Shown here: positions 6,247 through 21,510 of the stretch, piece after piece
Position numbering within the stretch: the first letter of the stretch is position 1
Layout: every line of letters begins with the position of its first letter
Assembly: GCF_021129305.1 (NCBI RefSeq)
Contig: NZ_JAJOMB010000020.1
Coordinates: forward strand, 1 to 64,000
From: Kineosporia babensis
GTDB lineage: Bacteria; Actinomycetota; Actinomycetes; Actinomycetales; Kineosporiaceae
Length of the DNA: 64,000 nucleotides
Direction of reading: 5' to 3'
Notes under the pieces: generated by a model
Seen by the model: the letters and a program-made list of their open reading frames with translations, nothing else
The model's database searches: none
Told to the model about the DNA's origin: nothing
Made by a program: the position numbers and the translations under genes

Positions 6247-6788
6247 CGGTTCCCGTGCAGGGCGGCGAAAACCTTCTCCGCGTAGTCCTCGCAGGCCTCG
6301 GCGCACTGCTTGAGCCGTTCACCGGCCTCGGCGGCGGCCGGGGCGCCGAACACGTCCCGCGCCGAGATGTCCCGGTGCCAGCGCCGTAGCCGCTCCAGGC
6401 TCTGCTCTTCCTCTTCCAGTTCCGCCAGGGTGAACTTGGCGACCCGGATCTCCTTGGCGATCTCCTGCTCGAACTTGAAGCAGTCGGCCAGGAACTCTTT
6501 CCACTCGTCGGCCCGCTCGGCGGTGAACATCTCCCGGAAGCGCTCGGCGTCCAGCGCGGTGCGCCCCGAGGCCTGCAGGGTCACGCTCACCCCCTCGGCC
6601 CGCTCGGTGAGGGCCAGCGCGCGTTCGACGCCCTCGGCGAAGACCGGGACGTCGGGTGCCGCCCAGATGCCCTGCCCCAGCGACAACGCCCCCACCTTGC
6701 GCAGCTCCCGCCACACGGCAACCCGGTGGCGGGAGGGCTCGGCGGGGAGTTTGACCACCAGGATCAGCCAACTCACGTCGTCCGTCAC
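6243..6788 (-). CDS. ChrB N-terminal domain protein (chromate-resistance regulator-like)
   Basis: Protein of 181 residues matching the ChrB N-terminal family: opening VSWLILVVKLPAEPSRHRVA, then VWRELRKVGALSLGQGIWAA, and a coiled, charged C-terminal half rich in Glu and Arg. ChrB is thought to sense chromate and control the linked exporter. The C-terminal ChrB rhodanese-like half found in longer members is absent. GTG 6788 is chosen because the conserved domain starts 4 residues later and TACATT (6801-6796 on this strand) ends 7 nt upstream, so translation is probably leaderless. It overlaps the MFS gene by ATGA. Confidence 0.8.
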   Translation of the reverse strand: MTDDVSWLILVVKLPAEPSRHRVAVWRELRKVGALSLGQGIWAAPDVPVFAEGVERALALTERAEGVSVTLQASGRTALDAERFREMFTAERADEWKEFLADCFKFEQEIAKEIRVAKFTLAELEEEEQSLERLRRWHRDISARDVFGAPAAAEAGERLKQCAEACEDYAEKVFAALHGNR

Positions 6789-6795
6789 AGCAGTG

Positions 6796-6814
6796 AATGT
6801 AGCAGGCGTTACAT
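6796..6814 (-). promoter_or_regulatory. leaderless chrB-like promoter with inverted repeat
   Basis: The -10 box TACATT (6801-6796) is part of an inverted repeat: ATGTA at 6797-6801 and TACAT at 6810-6814, with 8 nt between. A further TACAT lies near 6844-6848 beside the divergent kinase gene. Autoregulation by the ChrB-like protein is a reasonable guess, not shown. Confidence 0.4.
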
Positions 6815-6963
6815 CGCGACGTGCGAGTTGGCGATCGAGCTCACTACATGCCAGGTTTGTGGTGTTCACCCGATCTCGGATACAAGACCGGTGGGAGAGA
6901 TTCGCCCGCGGTTGAGCGGGCTTCGGCGAACGGACGGAAGGAGCGCGGGGTGAGTACCGCGTC

Positions 6964-9900
6964 ATGAGTACGTCCGACTACCGGTCCGGCGAGAAGCTGC
7001 TGGCCAACCGCTACCGCATCGGTGAGTTGCTGGGCCGCGGCGGGATGGGCGCGGTCTGGACCGGCTTCGACGTGCTGCTGCACCGTCCGGTCGCGATCAA
7101 GGAACTGCGCCCCGCGGCCGGGGTGAACCAGCAGCAGCGCGACGACCTGAACCTGTGGATGCTGCGGGAGGCCCGCGCGGCCGGCCGGATCGACCACCCC
7201 TCCGCGGTCACCATCTTCGACGTGTTCCAGGCCGACGGCCGGCCCTGGATCGTGATGCAGCTGCTGTCCGGCAAGACGCTGTCCGACCTGATCAAGCAGG
7301 ACGAGCCGATCCCGCTGGACCAGGCGATCGGCATCGGCCTGGACCTGCTGGACGCCCTGGAGGCCGCGCACCGGGCCGGGGTGGTGCACCGCGACGTCAA
7401 GCCGGGCAACATCATCGTCACCGACAGCGGGCGAGCGGTCCTCACCGACTTCGGCATCGCCCGGATCACCGACGAGACCACGCTCAGCACCAGCGGCATG
7501 TTCGTCGGCTCGCCGGGCTACATGTCCCCCGAGCGGGCCCGCGGCGAGTCGCCTGGCCCGGCCTGCGACCTGTGGTCCCTGGGGGCCACGCTGTTCGCGA
7601 TCACCGAAGGTCTGCCCCCGTTCCGCCGCGAGTCCGCGGTGCTCACCCTCACCGCTGTGGTCAATCAGCCCACGCCGCCGACCGTGAACGCCGGTGCCCT
7701 CGGCCCGGTGATCGCGCAGATGCTGAAGAAGGACGCCTGGGCGCGGCCCGACGCGGCCGGCACCCGGCAGTTGCTGCTGCGGGCGCGGACCAAGCTGGCC
7801 GAGGCGCAGACGCGGGTGGTGCCGCCGATCCTCGGGCTGCCTTCCAGAACGGCTGCGCCGGGTAAGAGCGAACCAAAGGACGGTGTGCTCGCCTCGGGCA
7901 CCCCCGGTCCGGTCCGCGGTGGCGCACCTTCGGAGCCGCTCGCCGCCGAACCGGCCGAGACCGCTTTGGCCGGCGATTCCGCTGCCCCAAAGACCGGTGA
8001 AGCACAAGTCGATGGGGCAGACGTTGCTGCCCCGGATGCCACGCCAGACGGCCCTTCGGTACCGAGCGCTTCGGTACCGGGCGTTTCGGTGGCGGGCAGC
8101 GGGGCATCGGTGGGCGAGAAGCCGGCTGAAGCAGAGTCGGCTCAGGTCGAGCCGGTTGGCGCCGCGCAGTCGATCGAGGAAGCCGGGCGACCGGGTCAGG
8201 ACTCCGCCGAGGCTGACGAGCAGGCGGCTGCGGGCGCCGCGCCAACGGCCCCAGAAGGCAGCGCTCAAGGTGAAGGCGCAGCCGAGTCCAGTCCCGAGAA
8301 CGAGTCTGACGCCGAGGCCAAGGGTCAGGCCGGAGCCAAGCTCAGCCCCGATGTCGAGCCTGCCGATGGCGATGCCAAGTCTCAGGCTGGACCCGGCTCC
8401 CAGGGCAAGCCCGCATCCGAGGCAGCGGCCACCAAGACTCAGGCCAGTTCCACGGCAGAGCCTGCTTCCAGCCCCGAAACCGCTTCCGAGGCCGAGCCCA
8501 CCTCCAGCGGCGAGGCAGCTTCCCGAGCCGAGCCCGCCTCGAAGACCGAGCCGAGCTCGGAAGACGAATCCGCTGACAAGGCCGCGGCTTCCAAGCTGAG
8601 CGGCGTTACCGCCGCAGGCTCCACGGGAGACTCTGGCCAGGAGCCAGAACCCGAATCCGCCAAGTCTTCTGGCGACAAACCGGCACCCGACGCCGAAGCA
8701 AGCTCCGGCAACGCGGCGAAGAAAGACACCGACGCAACACCCGGTGACCCGTCAACCCCGGACCTGGACCCGGCCTCGTCCGGGAGCGCCACGTCCGAGG
8801 GCGCTGCACCCGGCACCGCCACGCACGACAGCGCACCCGCCAAGGGCACGCCTGGTAGCAGCACAACACCCGCCCAGGGCCAGCCTGGCACCGTGATGCC
8901 CGGCAGCACCACCTCCGACAGCGCGACGTCCGACAGCGCGACGTCCGACAGCGCCACGCCTGCCAGCGCTGTACCCCGCGTGACGCCCACCAGCGATGCG
9001 CCCGGCAGCTCTGCATCGAGAACTCCAGCTCCCGGCAGCCCCACGTCCGAGAGCACCACGTCCGCCAGCGCTGCACCCGGCACTGCCAAGCACGACGGCA
9101 CACCCGGCGGCAGCACAACACCCGCCCAGGGCACACCCGGCACCGTGACGCCCACCAGCGGCACATCCGGCAGCTCTACATCGAGCACTCCAGCACCCGG
9201 CAGCACCACACCCGCTGATGCCGCATCTAGTCCCGCAACACCCACCAGCGTCACCGCCGCATCCGCCAAAGCTGCTCCTGGCAGCCCCACTCCCGACGGC
9301 ACCACGAAGCCGGGCCGCCCCACGAAGGCCAGCGCCGAAGCAGCTCCTACCCCCGCGGCGGCACCGTCCGTAGATACCGCTACGCCGAGCGCCCCGCAGG
9401 CATCCACGGCGAAGACCTCGGCGGCGTCAGGCTCGGCCGCGGCACCGTCGAGTGCCGCCTCTACCCCGGCGGAACCTGCTGCCACGGAAGCTATCCCGTC
9501 CGCACAGGTCCAGCCCGCGCCCACCGAAGCACTGGACGCCTCGCCGCCCGCTCCAACCACCCCGTCGACAATTACCCCGTCGCAGAACACCCCGTCGTCG
9601 AGCACCCAGCCCACCACGCACTCCCCCGCGGCACCGCTGCAACCAGCTACCCCACCGCAGCCACCGCGCGACCGGCCACCGCTTTCGCACCGGCTACGTA
9701 ATCTTCCCCCGGAGGGCCGCCGGCTGGCCGTGGTCGCGGCGCTTGCCGTGGTCCTGGTCTCCATCGCCCTGATCCTGGTCCAGACCCGCGGAGACGATCC
9801 GGCCGACCAGGCCACACCCCCGCAGCCCACACCCAGCGCGTCGGCGACCGAAGGGGCCGAGCCCTCGGCCGAAGAGACGGAAGGCGCCGACCCGACCGAG

Positions 9901-13492: not shown

Positions 13493-13533
13493 GGGAGCAG
13501 TTGTTTAAGCTTGCCGGGCAAGTAAATGCTCCC
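13493..13533 (+). promoter_or_regulatory. nested inverted repeats spanning the GH42 start codon
   Basis: GGGAGCA (13493-13499) pairs with TGCTCCC (13527-13533), and the second arm includes the ATG at 13526. Inside lies CTTGCC-G-GGCAAG (13510-13522). The two palindromes have different centres, so they are alternative rather than one helix. They could be an operator or could hide the start codon in RNA. Confidence 0.4.
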
Positions 13534-15586
13534 GAGTGGCAAGGACGCTGACGTACCCATGCTCTACGGTGCCGACTACAACCCCGAGCAGTGGCCGGAA
13601 CACGTCTGGGACGAGGACGTGAAGCGGATGCGCGAAGCCTGCGTGACCACCGTCAGCCTGGGCATCTTCTCCTGGTCCCGGCTGCAGCCCGCGCCCGGTA
13701 CCTGGGACTTCGACTGGCTCGACCGGATCATCGGCAAGCTGCACGCGGGCGGTATCGGGGTCAACCTGGCCACCGCCACCGCCTCGCCCCCGCCCTGGAT
13801 GAGCGTGGAGCACCCCGACACGCTGGCGGTGGACGAGAACGGCGCCACCTACTGGCACGGCTCGCGTCAGCACTACTCCCCCGCCTCGCCCACCTACCGC
13901 CGCCTGGCCGCCGAGCTGGTCGGCAAGCTGGCCGAACGGTACGCCGACCACCCCGCCGTAGTGATGTGGCACGTCAACAACGAGTACGGCTGCCACCTGC
14001 CGGTCGAGTACTCCGACGCCGCCCAAACCGCCTTCCGGGACTGGCTGCAGAAGCGGTACGGAGGCATTCCCGAGCTGAACGAGGCCTGGGGCACCGCGTT
14101 CTGGTCGCAGCGTTACGGCCGGTGGGAAGAGGTCATGCCGCCGCGCAAGGCCCCCTACAGCCGCAACCCCGCGCAGCTCCTGGACTACCACCGCTTCATG
14201 TCGGACATGTGGCTGGAGTGCTATCTGGCCGAGCGCGACATCATCCGCGCCGCCGGGGCCACCCAGCCCATCTCCACGAACATGATGGGCGCCTTCAAGC
14301 CCGGCAACTACCAGTCCTGGGCGCCGCACATCGACGTCATCACCGACGACTGCTACCCCGACCCGCTCGACCCGAACCGCCCCCGCAACACCGCCTTCCA
14401 GCGCGACCTGATGCGCTCGCTGAAGCCGGGAACGCCCTGGCTGCTGATGGAACAGGCAACGGACGCGGTGAACTGGCGACGCACGAACGTCTCCAAGCAG
14501 GACGGCCAGTTGGCGGCCGAGACCGCGCAGTCGATCGGCCGCGGCGCCGACGGCATCTTCTACTTCCAGTGGCGGCAGTCGCGGGCCGGCGCCGAGAAGT
14601 TCCACTCGGCGATGCTCCCTCACGCGGGTACCCGCACCCGTACCTGGCAGGAAGCCTCCGCCCTGGGCAAGCAGCTGGCGGCGCTGCCGGAACTGCCTAC
14701 ACCAGGGGACGATGCCCAGGTCGCCTTGGTGTTCGACTGGGAGAACTGGTGGGCGATCGAGAACCCTGACCACCCGAGCACACTGGATTACCTCGCCCTG
14801 ATCCGGGAGTGGTACGGCGCGCTGCACCGGCGTGGCGTGATGGTCGACATCGTGCCCCCGGAGCAGGTTTCCGGCCGCTACAACCTGGCCATCGCCCCGT
14901 TCCTGTACCTGCTGCGCGACGACGGCGCTGCCGCCCTGAGCCGGTTCGTGGCCGACGGCGGTGTGCTGCTGACCGGCCCGTTCAGCGACATCGTGGACGC
15001 CAACGACCGCTTCCGCGAGGGCGGCTTCCTGACCCAACTCGGGCCACTGCTGGGCGTCGGCCTGGAAGACTTCCGCGCCCTGCCGCTGCCCACCTCCACC
15101 ACTGTCGCCGAGCGCGCCGGCGCGGCCGAAGCACAGGACGCAGAACAGGCCCCCGACGGCCTCGACCGCGTGACGCTTGAGTTGGCCAGCGGGGGTGTGC
15201 TCGGCGGCACGCACTTCGCCGAAGCCCTGTGGGCAGACTCCGCCGAGGTCCTGGGCACCTTCCGCTCCGGCCCCTCGGCCGGCCGCCCCGCCCTCACCCG
15301 GCGCGCCCACGGCGCCGGCCAGGCCTGGTACGTAGGCACCATGCCCGACCCCTCCGGCCTGAACGCTATCGTCGACCGTCTGCTCCGCGAGGCCTTCGTG
15401 ACTCCCCTGTTGGCAGATCTGCCCGAGGGGGTGGAAATTGCCAGCCGGGGAGATCTCATCACGGTGATCAACCACAGCGCTTCCCCGGCAACGGTAATGC
15501 TCCCTGGCGTGGAATTGCTGAGCGGGAAAGAATTCGGTACGCGTGAACTCGCCCCCCAGGAATTCGCGTTCATCAAGGCGGTTTAG
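13526..15586 (+). CDS. GH42 beta-galactosidase
   Basis: Intracellular glycoside hydrolase family 42 enzyme of 686 residues, expected to release galactose from short beta-galactosides. It opens with the family signature MLYGADYNPEQWPEHVW. The acid/base is Glu153 in WHVNNEYGCH and the nucleophile Glu309 in LLMEQATDAVNW. The C-terminal parts correspond to the trimerisation domain (from about 390, VALVFDWENWW) and a small beta domain with a secreted-like but non-hydrophobic end. No signal peptide. ATG 13526 and ATG 13559 are both possible; the latter begins exactly at the family signature. Preceded by a TetR gene and followed by a strong hairpin. Confidence 0.95.
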   Translation: MLPSGKDADVPMLYGADYNPEQWPEHVWDEDVKRMREACVTTVSLGIFSWSRLQPAPGTWDFDWLDRIIGKLHAGGIGVNLATATASPPPWMSVEHPDTLAVDENGATYWHGSRQHYSPASPTYRRLAAELVGKLAERYADHPAVVMWHVNNEYGCHLPVEYSDAAQTAFRDWLQKRYGGIPELNEAWGTAFWSQRYGRWEEVMPPRKAPYSRNPAQLLDYHRFMSDMWLECYLAERDIIRAAGATQPISTNMMGAFKPGNYQSWAPHIDVITDDCYPDPLDPNRPRNTAFQRDLMRSLKPGTPWLLMEQATDAVNWRRTNVSKQDGQLAAETAQSIGRGADGIFYFQWRQSRAGAEKFHSAMLPHAGTRTRTWQEASALGKQLAALPELPTPGDDAQVALVFDWENWWAIENPDHPSTLDYLALIREWYGALHRRGVMVDIVPPEQVSGRYNLAIAPFLYLLRDDGAAALSRFVADGGVLLTGPFSDIVDANDRFREGGFLTQLGPLLGVGLEDFRALPLPTSTTVAERAGAAEAQDAEQAPDGLDRVTLELASGGVLGGTHFAEALWADSAEVLGTFRSGPSAGRPALTRRAHGAGQAWYVGTMPDPSGLNAIVDRLLREAFVTPLLADLPEGVEIASRGDLITVINHSASPATVMLPGVELLSGKEFGTRELAPQEFAFIKAV

Positions 15587-15655: not shown

Positions 15656-16912
15656 TCACATTTGCCACGACGGACGGGTATAAAGGCCTGCTGCATGGAA
15701 GATCTGGGAGGCCGCGGCCGCCACCTCCGCGTCCGGGCCGGCCCAGATCCGCTCCAGCCAGGGTCCGGCGAAGAGGCCGACCAGCGTGGGCTTGCCGTCG
15801 GCTGAGGTGGCGTCGAGCCATTCGCTGACCGAGCCCTCGTCCGGGCCGTGCAGGCGGTAGTAGCCGGACGGGCTCTGCGGCCAGGAGCGTTCGGCGAAGC
15901 GCAGGATCACCTTTTCCACCCGTCCCATGCCGAGGTGGCCGAGGGCGACGCGGTGCTCTGCGGGCAGGGGCGGTGAGAACTCGATGACGTCGGCGGCCAG
16001 GACCGCGACGGGGGCGGTGACGATCACGGCGTCCGCTGAGAACTCGCCGGCTTCACCGGTCAGGGTCACGCCGTCGGTGCTGACGCGGATCGTGTGCACG
16101 GGATGCTCCAGGCGGATGTCCAGGCCCTGGGCCAGGTGGTCTACCAGGAGGCGGTAGCTGCCGGAGATCCACTGATCGCCCTCACCCACGCCGGCCTCGA
16201 AACCGTGCCGGGCGCTGAGCCATTCCAGCGGAACACCGGCGTCCATGGTGATCTCCGCGTCGATGAAGCGGCGGATGGCCGCGGGCGTCCAGGGGTGCGG
16301 GTTCGCGGTCCACTCGGTCAGCACATCGGCCACGGACGAGCCTTCCGCGGCGGTGGCCAGGCGATCGCGTAAGGCCTGATCAAGGCCGCTCGTGTGATCC
16401 GCCGCGCCCAGGACCAGTGGGGAGGTGAAATCGGTTGCGGTGGTGGTCAGCTGGAGCAGTTCGGCCAGGCGGGCCAGGACGTTCTGGTCGTACTGCTGCA
16501 GCCAGTTCGCGCCCAGGTCGAAGGTGAAGCCGTCGAGGTCGATGCCTGCCGTACGTCCGCCGACGCGGTCGCGGGCCTCCCACACCTGCGTGTCAAGGCC
16601 ACGATGCGCCAGCTCACGGGCCGCGCCGAGCCCTGCCATCCCGGCTCCGAGAACCGCCACCCGCCGATGCCCGAACTCTGCGGCCCAGGCCGCCGCCTCG
16701 ATGCCCTGCTCGTAGGCCCCGTGTGTCATACCCGAGCGAGTGGGGTGGGTCGCTTCGCCGGCGATCCGCAGCCGGGTGCCCACGGGCGTCCCCAGTTGGA
16801 TCCGGTCAGCAGCGCTCCCGTGGCGCCCGATCAGGCTCCAGGAACCGCGCGACCAGGGGTCTTCGCCCCAGCGCGAGACAGCGAAGGCGGTCGGCAGGGG
16901 TGGCGCGGACAT
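15656..16912 (-). CDS. circularly permuted FAD-dependent amine oxidase
   Basis: Flavin monoamine-oxidase family protein of 418 residues with its segments in an unusual order. Residues 12-78 carry SRWGEDPWSRGSWS, IAGEATHP (50-57) and MTHGAYEQGIEAA, which in normal family members form the C-terminal end and contact the flavin. Only then comes the dinucleotide-binding start VAVLGAGMAGLGAARE (86-100), with Glu112 and GGR 118-120. The substrate domain follows, and the protein ends with HAAGLYTRPSWQM, the point that normally leads into RWGxDP. All parts are present once, so the total length is normal. ATG 16912 is preferred over 17197 because TAGCTT ends 7 nt upstream. Substrate unknown; FAD binding should be intact if the fold closes. 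Confidence 0.85.
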   Translation of the reverse strand: MSAPPLPTAFAVSRWGEDPWSRGSWSLIGRHGSAADRIQLGTPVGTRLRIAGEATHPTRSGMTHGAYEQGIEAAAWAAEFGHRRVAVLGAGMAGLGAARELAHRGLDTQVWEARDRVGGRTAGIDLDGFTFDLGANWLQQYDQNVLARLAELLQLTTTATDFTSPLVLGAADHTSGLDQALRDRLATAAEGSSVADVLTEWTANPHPWTPAAIRRFIDAEITMDAGVPLEWLSARHGFEAGVGEGDQWISGSYRLLVDHLAQGLDIRLEHPVHTIRVSTDGVTLTGEAGEFSADAVIVTAPVAVLAADVIEFSPPLPAEHRVALGHLGMGRVEKVILRFAERSWPQSPSGYYRLHGPDEGSVSEWLDATSADGKPTLVGLFAGPWLERIWAGPDAEVAAAASQIFHAAGLYTRPSWQM

Positions 16913-16925: not shown

Positions 16926-17054
16926 GCAGTGGGGCTACCGGGATCCCAGCGAATATTCACGGCTGTCCGCGCCGATGGCTGAGCCACCCGAACCGGCGCT
17001 GCTGCCGCAAGCGTGATTGAGTTGCCTGACTCACCCACACCCTTCGGAGGGATC

Positions 17055-17795
17055 GTGCCACCCCGCTGGATCGCCTGCTCGGCCCTGGTAGCGCTCCTGG
17101 TGACCGGCTGCAGCGGCGACGAGGAGACGCCGGATCGGCCGACGACTACGTACGACGCGGCCTGCACCGAGGTTCTGGTCGTGACCGTACGCGGCACCGG
17201 TGAACCGTTGGACGAGACGAACCTGCTGAGCCCGGTGGCCGCGCAGATCTCGCAGGAGCACGCGGTCCGGCATTACGACGTGCCCTACCCGGCGAACGCG
17301 CAGTCGCTGAGCACTACCCCGGGCGATGCGTACTTCGGGGAGAGCGCCGACGAGGGTGTGCGGCTGGTGGTGCAGGAGCTGAATGCGGCGGCCCGGGCCT
17401 GTCCGGATCAGCGGTCGGTGGTGATGGGGTTCTCGCAGGGGGCGCTGGTGGTGGGCGATGCGCTGATCAGCCCGTCCGAACGCGATGCCGGCCAGGAAGC
17501 CGGAGAGCTCACCCCCAAAGCAAAGGACGATGTGGTTGCGTCGGTGCTCTACGGTGACCCGCGGTTCGTGGGTAGCGAACCGTTCAATGCCGGCACGTAC
17601 GACAGCAGCCTGAACGGGATGATGACGAACCAGCGTAGGGCCGGGGCTCTGGACGAGTTCGCAGATCGGCTGCGCAGTTACTGCGTGGCGAACGACTTCG
17701 TGTGCCAGGCGGGTGGGCAGTTCGACCCGCACGTGTCCTACTTCAACAACGGGATGCGCCAGCAGGGCGCCGAATTCGCGCTCGGCAAGTTCTAG
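17055..17795 (+). CDS. cutinase-family lipoprotein esterase
   Basis: Secreted, probably lipid-anchored serine esterase of 246 residues. The signal sequence ends in the lipobox LVTGC with Cys19. The nucleophile is Ser127 in GFSQGA; an Asp occurs in LYGDPRF and a second in the [15 protein letters not shown] end, where the His completes the triad as in cutinases and Culp proteins. Substrates in this family range from cutin to acyl lipids. GTG 17055 is preferred because GGAGGG lies just upstream and the n-region is then short. The stop TAG shares a CTAG palindrome with the convergent fusion gene, so the two genes overlap by 3 nt. Confidence 0.88.
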
Positions 17796-19717
17796 CCCGG
17801 GGCCAGGACGATGCCGAAGTGCACCTCGGTCCAGTCCTGACCACTCATTTCGCGCCCGTCCGGCGTCGGATGATCAGCCGGATGCGTGACGAAGTCCTGC
17901 ACCAGCGAATCCCGGACGCCGAACACGCTGTCGCTGCCGAGAAGTTCGTCGCCCCGGACGAAGATGTGCGTGACGAGCGTGCGCAGTCCCTCGGCGGTCA
18001 CCATGAAGTGCAGGTGGGAAGCCCGCATCGGTGAGCGCCCGGTCGCGGTCAGCATGGCTCCGACCGGACCGTCGTGCGGGATCGGGTAGGGCGTGGGAGT
18101 AACGGCCCAGAAGCAGAATTCGCCCTCGGCGTCACTGAACAGGTGGGCTCGGGCGGCGGTCCGGCCGTCGTCGTACTGCACGTCGTACAAGCCGTCGTCG
18201 TCGGCCTGCCACACCTCGATCCGGGCGTTCGGCACCGGCTGCCCGTTGGTGTCGCGGACCGTGCCGGCGACCCAGCACGGCTGGCCGGGGGCATCGGCCG
18301 CGATGTTGCCGCCGAGCGGGATGCGGGGCGAGTCCTCGACGAAGAACGGGCCGAAGACGGTTGCTTCCGTGGCGTTCTCGTAGGCTTCGTGGTTGATCGT
18401 GATGGTCTGCATCGAGACGCCGAGGGTGTCGGAGAGCAGGATGAACTCCTGGCGCCGGTCGTCGGTGATGTGGCCGACGGCGGTCAGGAAGTCGATGCCC
18501 TTCTGCCATTCGGCCTCGGTGAGGCGCACCGCGCGCAGGAAGGCGTGGGTGTGCCGGACCACCTGCTGCATGAGCTCTTTCAGGCGGGGATCGGGGGTTT
18601 GATCGAAGGATGCGACCACGCGCCGCACTAGATCGGCCTCACGGTGACGCTGCCGGCTGGTTTCCGCCGGCTGGTGACCGGACCAGGCGTTGTGCAGGAG
18701 CTCTTGCAGCGCAGCGGGAGTGACCGGCGCCGGGTTGGACGGTGGCACCACGGCGCTCAGAGCCTCGACGGCTGCGGGGATCTGCTCTTCGGTCAGGCCG
18801 AAGTCACGTAGCGCGGTCGGGGCGCCGATTCGGCGCCGCAGGTCTTGCAGGCCTTCCAGCGCGGTGGTGCTGCCGAATGCCTGGGCCAGCCGGTCGGCTG
18901 CGGCGGGAGCGTGCGGGGCGTTGAGGGCGAGCACGTGCGGCAGGATCACGGCGTGCGTGGGGGCGTGGGGCAGGTCGTAGAGGCCGCCGAGCACGTGGCA
19001 GATCTTGTGGTGCAGGCCAGAACCCGCTGAGGCGAAGGCCACCGCGGACAGATACGCCCCGTACAGGGCTTGCTCGCGGCCTGCCAGATCACTGGGATTC
19101 TGGACGATCTGCGCCAGGGCTGCGCTCAGGGCCCGGATGCCTTCGGTGGCCATGGCGGCGTTGATCGCATCGGCCCGCGGCGCCCAGAGGCTGTCCACGC
19201 AATGTGCCATGGCGTTCAGGCCGGAGGCCACGCTGAGGTCCAGCGGCAGCGAAAGGGTCAGCTCGGCGTCGTAAACCACTGACCGGGGCAGCACCCAGCG
19301 GTCGGCCCCGGTGGTCTTGGACCCGCCCTCGGTCAGCCCCCAGATATCGGTTGCCTCGGAGCCGGCGTAGGTGGTCGGGACGGCAACGATCGGCAGGCTG
19401 GTGCTGAGCGCCACTGCCTTCGCCAGCCCGGTGGAGGAACCGCCGCCGACACACACCAGGGCGTCCACGCGTCCGTTGCTGGCAGTTGCTCTGGCTCTTT
19501 CGGCCACGGCGACCGGAACGTGCCTGACGACTTCGTCGAACGTCTCCACCACCGGCAGGCCCGCCGTGATCCGTTGGGCGACAGCGGCTTCGGACGCACC
19601 AGCGATGAGCATGACCCGCGTGGCCCCGAGCGAGGCGATCTCCTCGGCCACCGCCTCGGCCGCGCCGCCGGTGGCGAACCGGACCCGCTGACCGAGTGTC
19701 TCGTGGGCGAACTGCAT
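17792..19717 (-). CDS. fused maleylacetate reductase / hydroxyquinol 1,2-dioxygenase
   Basis: One frame of 641 residues encodes two consecutive enzymes of hydroxyquinol breakdown. Residues 1-350 are an iron-type alcohol dehydrogenase fold of the maleylacetate reductase branch: [31 protein letters not shown], metal-site histidines in MAHCVDSLW and [12 protein letters not shown]. From about 360 an intradiol dioxygenase follows: [37 protein letters not shown] with the Tyr ligand, [15 protein letters not shown] and ASHLHFMV with the His ligands. The dioxygenase opens hydroxyquinol to maleylacetate, which the reductase turns into 3-oxoadipate. The upstream hydroxylase stop overlaps ATG 19717 as TAATG. 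Similar fusions exist in other actinomycetes. Confidence 0.93.
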
Positions 19718-21510
19718 TACGAACGCCCGAGAATCCGGCTCAATGCCTCGCGCAGAGCACCTTCCGGTTCGGCCGGCATCGCGCTGACCCGCCAGCCGAT
19801 GTGCTTGTCCGGCCGCACCAGCAGCGCGCCGCTCTCCTCGATCTCCCGAAGGCGCGACCAGTCGTAGTACAGGTCGGTGACCGCCCGGCCGGGCCCGATC
19901 ACCACCGTGGCGATCTCAACGTCCAGCGCGGCCGATACCTTCGCCGCCACGTCTTCCCAGCGCTCACCAGCGATCCCCGTGATCAAGGTAAAGCATTGGT
20001 AGGAGGCCAGATCCATCATCGCCAGCCGATGCCGGCTGTCCCCGACCCAGGCGTGCGGCAGGTGCGAACCGGGCACCGTGGAGGACTGGTAGTACAGGTC
20101 GGGGTCCCGTTCCGGATCCGGCCGCCGGGAACCGTCCGGCACCACCGCGTCCGAGGTGTAGAACTGGCCCAGTTCCACACCGTGCGCGTTGAACTCGTAG
20201 TGCTTCAGCTCCATCGCCTTGACCAGCGCCGCCCGCTTGGCCAGGCCGGCCGGCGAGTTCTCCTTGCGCTCCTCGATCCGGCGGACCATCTCGGCCTCGT
20301 CCGGAGCATCGGTCAGGCCCAGCGCCACGAAGAAGTCGACGAACTCCCGGCTGGAGCGGTTGGCCCGCTGGACGATGCGCTCGGCCACCGGTGCCCGCTC
20401 GGCCGAATACGTCTCCAGCAGCGACGGTCGGGCCTGGCCCTTGAGCACGGCCGCCAGCTTCCAGGCCAGGTTGTACGAGTCCTGGACGGAGGTGTTCGAG
20501 CCCAGGCCGTTCGAGGGCGGATGCCGGTGCACCGCGTCCCCGGCGCAGAACACCCGCCCGGCCTGCAGATGCGTCGCGTACATCTCGTTGTTGCCCCACA
20601 ACGAGGTGCCGGTGATCTCCACCTCGATCTCCGGCAGTCCGAGCAGGCTGCGCACGATCTGGGTGGCGGCTTCCTCGTCCACCACCGGCGGCGGGCCGGC
20701 GATGTCGTAGCCCCAGACGATCAGCCACTCGTTCCAGGTGCGCACCATCCGGACCAGCCCGGCCCCGATGCCGCCGACGTTCGAGCCCGGCTGAATCACC
20801 CAGTACAGCACCGACGGCCGGGGTTCGCAGTAGGCGCTCAGATCGGCCTTGAAGGTGATGTTCATGGAGCCGGCAATGTCCATCGCCCCCTCGAACGGCA
20901 GGCCGATGTCGGCCGCCACCTTGGACCGTGCCCCGTCCGCGCCGATCAGGTACTTGGCCCGGATGGTGTACGGGCGCCCGGTCAGCCGGTCGAGCACCTG
21001 CACGTCGACGCCGTCCGCGTCCTGGGTGTGCGAGAGGTATTCGGTGGAGAACCGGTTCTGGGCGCCGCGTTCGGCCGCGTTGCGCACCAGGATCGGCTCG
21101 AGATAGGTCTGCGGGATGTCCACGGTCAGGCAGGGCGAGGCCAGCTGGTAGTCGGCCTCGCGAGCGGCACTGGTCCCCCAGGTCTGGATCCGGCCGATCT
21201 CCTCCCCGGCGATCGAGGTGCAGAACACCGTGTCGCCGACCAGGTGGTGCGGGGTGGCGTCGGCCAGCACCTGCTCCTCGATGCCCAGGTCCCGGAAGAT
21301 CTCCATCGCCCGCTGGTTGGTGATGTGGGCGCGCGGGGTGTTCGCGGTCCAGCGGTACTTCGTGATCATGATGGTCGGTACGCCCAGGGTGGCCAGGAAG
21401 AGCGCGGCCGAGGCGCCGGCCGGGCCGGAGCCGACGATCAGCACATCGGTCTGCACCACGGCCGTGTCCGGAAGCTCGGTCTCCGGCTGGCCGTCGTCGA
21501 ACTCGGGCAT
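19717..21510 (-). CDS. FAD-dependent aromatic hydroxylase (resorcinol-hydroxylase-like)
   Basis: Class A flavoprotein monooxygenase of 597 residues, of the phenol/2,4-dichlorophenol hydroxylase size class. It has the FAD site [21 protein letters not shown], the DG motif region [20 protein letters not shown] and the second FAD motif [19 protein letters not shown]. The C-terminal thioredoxin-like domain ends with [20 protein letters not shown]. With the fused dioxygenase-reductase directly downstream, the likely job is para-hydroxylation of resorcinol or a related phenol to hydroxyquinol. ATG 21510 has GAAGAGG 5 nt upstream. It overlaps the next gene by one base, so expression is coupled. Confidence 0.9.

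Follow-up and report, generated by a model that had tools for sequence, protein, structure and literature searches.

Is a flavin amine oxidase that begins with the segment on which its relatives end a genuine rearrangement of the chain, or a gene that has been misread? The question is raised by P0001, a protein of the soil-type bacterium Kineosporia babensis encoded in the window analysed here, a stretch of 64,000 nucleotides (NZ_JAJOMB010000020.1, positions 1 to 64,000). In ordinary members of the superfamily the chain runs from the Rossmann start through the substrate- and FAD-binding core to the C-terminal segment, whose GEAT motif contacts the FAD, and in enzymes of the LSD/PAO type a lysine lies near the flavin. 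We read P0001 as a naturally circularly permuted member of the monoamine oxidase/polyamine oxidase/LSD superfamily, predicted to form the usual two-domain FAD enzyme, and give this explanation as a whole a probability of about 0.87. Circular permutation is a well-known phenomenon. No natural permutant of a flavin amine oxidase appears among the matches listed in full-text literature searches, which covered few subscription journals and give weak evidence of absence. MAO, LSD and polyamine oxidases have been heavily studied, and the permutant is a new form inside a known superfamily.

Order of the parts in P0001

The minus-strand translation of the gene is a single unbroken frame (Table 1). It matches the Pfam family Amino_oxidase (PF01593) in three stretches (E 1.6e-52, 179.7 bits, cut-off 19.8) and NAD_binding_8 over residues 87-149 (E 1.2e-15). 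Both the GxGxxG start and the GE-T segment of PF01593 are there, with their sequence order reversed, and what the core profile recognises lies entirely downstream of the moved segment. The latter contains RWG-D-DPW--GSWS, GEAT and HGAYEQG, followed by a helix. The motifs lie where an earlier note on this DNA had placed them (RWGEDPWSRGSWS at residues 14-26, IAGEATHP at 50-57, HGAYEQG at 64-70 and GAGMAG at 89-94) and, as it also held, the parts occur once in one intact frame, the C-terminal segment being single in the ORF. The ATG is a presumed start codon, because the frame stays open upstream as far as a GTG at 17197; P0001 orthologues have a usable start codon at a roughly equivalent position. 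A cutinase-family esterase gene on the opposite strand begins within this open stretch.

Table 1. Features of the oxidase locus and its surroundings, in positions of the window.
Feature	Position	Strand	Residues	Remark
GH42 beta-galactosidase	13526-15586	+		Convergent to the P0001 gene
Circularly permuted flavin amine oxidase, P0001	15656..16912	-	418 aa	ATG at 16912, presumed start
Oxidase core	15683..16672	-	81-410	Profile match and BLASTP to L003
Lys334 codon (GRVEKVILRF)	15911..15913	-	334	Aligned with the LSD2 lysine (GIIEKIALQF)
Rossmann dinucleotide-binding start	16553..16663	-	84-120	N-terminal in ordinary members
GAGMAG of the Rossmann start	16631-16648	-	89-94	
Moved segment	16676..16900	-	5-79	C-terminal in ordinary members
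Cutinase-family esterase	17013-17795	+		
Iron-alcohol-dehydrogenase-type protein fused to an intradiol dioxygenase	17792-19717	-	641 aa	One frame
Aromatic-ring FAD monooxygenase	19717-21510	-		FAD_binding_3, Rng_hyd_C; immediately upstream of the fused gene

The rotation becomes apparent when P0001 is compared with L003, an ordinary-order amine oxidase from the window's family, in which the Rossmann start precedes the core, the segment is C-terminal and the N-terminus is signal-like by eye, a feature P0001 is without. BLASTP aligns the two proteins in two blocks, the core (85-383 to 55-367, 36% identity, E 1e-38) and the moved segment (5-74 to 398-467, 40% identity, E 4e-11). In the same comparison the P0001 C-terminus (PTLVGLFAGPWLERIW...AAASQIFHAAGLYTRPSWQM) stops where ordinary homologues continue into the RW-x-x-DP segment, as the earlier note had it. 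A profile of the segment matches P0001 (L068) with E 1e-31, P0001 itself being among the 19 sequences of the profile; the BLASTP comparison is independent of that profile, and given both values the match of the moved segment is not due to chance. Against the LSD2 chain 4gu0_A, phmmer places residues 58-155 and 247-351 at 311-410 and 527-632, and the moved block (5-78) at the end of the chain (701-774), a match that is weak taken alone (i-E 0.0034).

Where should the chain be cut to restore the ordinary order? With a profile built from 23 ordinary-order homologues and each second rotation scored, P0001 scores 243.5 bits as it stands and peaks at 309.6 with the cut at residues 78-82, where the model is covered from 1 to 421 in one domain; the earlier note had suggested a rotation of about 80 residues. 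A fixed rotation, with the part before the segment removed beforehand, was applied to the permuted and ordinary ORFs of the wider survey described below. It raises the score of 40 of the 47 permuted ORFs and leaves six unchanged at 0.0 and one at -0.3 (the 47 correspond to 37 distinct genes, some counted more than once). Conversely, 38 of 39 ordinary ORFs lose and one gains 0.2; 23 of these 39 had built the profile, and of the 16 outside it 15 lose. When N-termini are kept, 21 of 36 proteins scanned gain more than 10 bits: 20 of the 21 proteins of the window's kind that were scanned, but only one of the 15 signal-bearing proteins. In the signal-bearing kind the signal and linker fall between core and segment after rotation.

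Relatives and the two permuted kinds

The same order was sought in relatives through a contig scan with two peptide patterns, both lying within the moved segment and neither dependent on its place in the chain. Of the 20 loci recovered, 19 are permuted: one in Kineosporia rhizophila and 18 in Micromonosporaceae (15 Actinoplanes and one each of Symbioplanes, Nucisporomicrobium and Catenuloplanes). The ordinary-order exception (L130) comes from a MAG titled delta proteobacterium/Myxococcota. Among the permuted loci, L123 is missing the start of the segment and L126 has a masked tail. Together with the window and two further loci (L031, L032), the permuted order is present in 22 distinct genes of the window's subfamily, which agrees with the rotated two-block alignment in establishing P0001 as a circular permutant, and many more distant genes have it as well, in line with the distinct lineage that had been proposed. 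Since many related bacteria share this rearrangement, the permuted form is real and maintained, not an artefact.

The closest relative among 58 genomes is from the same genus, with a single match over residues 3-410 at 77%; the K. rhizophila protein is 77% identical and has the same permuted order. Loci L002 and L111 encode one and the same protein, which, given the same-genus match, places the window in Kineosporia. Over 408 codons the comparison with the latter gives dN 0.17 and dS 0.63 (dN/dS about 0.27), values that indicate purifying selection on the permuted protein. The distribution of the gene is patchy: it is intact in two of six genomes of the window's genus, with a fragment in a third, and in two of 11 genomes of the genus of G058. 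The fragment (L007, in the congener G004) retains only a short stretch like residues 365-408 (73%), the rest being absent, and represents a gene in the course of being lost. Searches of plasmids gave 12 and 8 matching records, of which one (H1) is near full length, in two pieces (89% of the query); a permuted copy on a plasmid is considered unlikely.

A wider survey combined overlapping draws of 396, 394 and 296 genomes, at the level of order, class and phylum, with the 58 genomes (loci L001-L110). Of its 110 loci, 96 have an ORF above the core threshold, 47 in permuted and 39 in ordinary order and 10 without a detectable segment. As distinct genes these are 37 permuted, including the window, L031 and L032, and 39 ordinary, counts that cover the retrieved loci and are not prevalences. 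Permuted genes occur in the coded families f1, f15, f19, f35, f37, f43, f48, f51, f72, f80 and f82, with f72, f80 and f82 outside the window's class, and both orders coexist in no fewer than two genomes (G063, with L047 ordinary and L067 permuted; G259, with L044 ordinary and L066 permuted). The Pfam and NCBIfam libraries classify permuted proteins without revealing the rearrangement.

The permuted genes fall into two kinds, one without a signal peptide and with Lys334 kept, to which the window's gene belongs, and one with a Tat-like signal, in which the lysine is often replaced. Four of the 37 are of the window's kind and 32 are signal-bearing, L071 standing beside them. A twin-arginine stretch precedes the segment in all 32 and a lipobox pattern was found in 26, in both cases by pattern and by eye, and these proteins would be exported folded, with their FAD, via the Tat route. 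Relatives of this kind (e.g., L004, L005, L070, L088) have the permuted order and the opened loop in common with P0001 but are only 26-35% identical to it (15 aligned). A lysine occupies the Lys334 position in 18 of 37 permuted genes, compared with 38 of 39 ordinary genes; the other 19 permuted genes carry T, L, R, V, S or A (e.g., L004, L005, L033, L042). Part of the signal-bearing kind may therefore have other chemistry, and some of its members may not be amine oxidases.

Did the permuted order arise once or several times? In a tree of the re-rotated sequences the permuted rows require four label changes, and they form one group in 0% of 200 bootstrap trees; an AU test with the permuted rows held as one clade gives p 0.0775, so that a single clade is not rejected. 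The branch of the window's subfamily in this tree is 1.22 changes per column long, which makes the placement of the window's kind unsure. In the alignment the opened loop is identical in both kinds, which would fit one origin; structural constraint would give the same result. It may be proposed, tentatively, that the permuted order either gave rise long ago to a flavoenzyme class that spans the phylum and evolves separately, or arose more than once at the same loop. Such a class would include Tat-exported lipoproteins with the membrane anchor at a new place on the fold, many of which would have lost the catalytic lysine in favour of non-amine chemistry.

As to mechanism, duplication followed by fusion and trimming, as the earlier note had suggested, is a plausible origin of the permutant. 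No intermediate with the segment at both ends, and no second copy of the segment, was found among 76 distinct ORFs examined (0 of 37 permuted, 0 of 39 ordinary). In Actinoplanes couchii (L120) another amine oxidase gene (6409-7920) lies on the same strand as the permuted gene (7989-9212) and stops some 65 bases before it. The possibility that it is left over from a tandem duplication was considered and rejected, since it is a distant paralogue with the parts in the usual sequence (segment E 2e-3, core E 3e-25; Pfam).

Fold, chemistry and competing readings

How might a chain so rearranged still bind FAD? In this reading the chain is opened in the loop that joins the last core helix to the RW-x-x-DP strand, and a linker of about 3-5 residues connects the former C-terminal helix with the strand that begins the Rossmann fold. 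By profile bounds, the join from moved segment to core is 1-12 residues long (median 2) in the 37 permuted genes, and the tail beyond the core 1-25. The moved segment is then expected to dock next to the Rossmann sheet and complete the FAD site, with Lys334 positioned by the flavin; an amine substrate, polyamine-like, would be dehydrogenated, its hydride passing to FAD, and the flavin would be reoxidised by O2 or another acceptor. The permuted family would be a natural experiment on fold connectivity, on the spread of permutations and on how FAD could still be bound once the last contact segment comes first.

The polyamine oxidase/LSD branch gives the best PDB match, both by sequence and with the model of the orthologue L127. 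The AlphaFold2 model of P0001 itself (18 sequences; mean pLDDT 68.9, pTM 0.60) reaches a TM of only 0.29-0.34 by query length to LSD2 and polyamine oxidase, among 50 matches listed, and was dropped as evidence of fold, being too poor (TM about 0.3). The L127 model (mean pLDDT 72.3, pTM 0.70) finds its best matches in LSD2 and maize polyamine oxidase, with TM up to 0.57 by query length among 50 listed, and moderately supports a core fold of this type. These TM values come from Foldseek, which follows sequence order and is silent on the docking of the moved segment. P0001 shares with the PAO/LSD (KDM1) branch (PF01593; maize PAO 1b37, LSD2 4gu0) its sequence blocks, the GxGxxG, GEAT and G-A motifs and the aligned lysine. 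It differs in having N-terminally the segment on which the other chains end, and in lacking, at 418 residues, the extra domains of LSD1 and LSD2.

The function suggested by these likenesses is an FAD-dependent amine dehydrogenation of the polyamine-oxidase/LSD type. Lys334 is invariant in all 18 aligned rows of the window's subfamily, as are G89/G91/G94, G52/E53/T55 and W15/D18/P19/W20. As we take them by eye, the residues of P0001 that correspond to the aromatic cage of MAO/LSD are Leu27 and Met62, and for this reason P0001 may act on something other than a typical amine. No curated equivalog cut-off was reached among the 25 NCBIfam families listed, out of 37 (E up to 0.001). That P0001 is a working protein, as the earlier note had proposed, is supported indirectly, by the purifying selection and the kept lysine.

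Three other readings have to be weighed against the permuted flavoenzyme. An assembly or frame error might have removed an ordinary N-terminus, or residues 1-80 might belong to a separate gene; the frame that stays open upstream of the ATG would suit such an artefact. However, the core profile follows the segment in the orthologous frames of K. rhizophila and of the 18 Micromonosporaceae loci, no orthologue was found with residues 1-80 as a protein of their own, and a gene fragment survives in a third congener. This reading is refuted by the orthologues, and we leave it almost no probability.

It is also conceivable that the protein folds as a permutant and serves another role, without flavin oxidase chemistry. 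The lysine missing from 19 of 37 permuted relatives and the long branch of the window's subfamily would agree with this, but in that same subfamily Lys334 and the Rossmann, GE-T and W/D/P/W residues are invariant in all 18 rows, and the dN/dS of about 0.27 also speaks against it, so that we consider it improbable. Slightly less probable still is a domain swap, in which the N-terminal segment would complete the FAD site of another protomer and make the protein an obligate oligomer: model confidence is low over the first 30 residues of the segment, which leaves its docking partner open, yet the short join suits local docking and no positive pointer to a swap was found.

Neighbouring genes

A conserved operon was considered as a clue to function and rejected, as the neighbourhoods vary among the 19 permuted loci and the window. 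When genes called by script around these 20 loci were clustered, no family besides the oxidase was present in more than five. The window and K. rhizophila have four neighbour families in common, including that of the GH42 gene, whose K. rhizophila homologue is in the equivalent place. Because neighbourhoods are unconserved and no signal is evident, the window's kind most likely acts as a stand-alone cytosolic amine oxidase or dehydrogenase, a role that we favour with some reserve.

The 641-residue frame beyond the esterase gene has Fe-ADH and ADH_Fe_C domains within residues 18-345 and Dioxygenase_N/C within 376-639. Its dehydrogenase half is presumably, from its appearance by eye, a maleylacetate reductase, and the fusion likely combines two consecutive steps of hydroxyquinol breakdown. 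A homologue of full length in one frame was found in one of 57 other genomes (G052, 59%), and the two halves are adjoining separate matches in G019, G029 and G045 (E up to 1e-60). The monooxygenase encoded immediately upstream probably hydroxylates the ring in this pathway.
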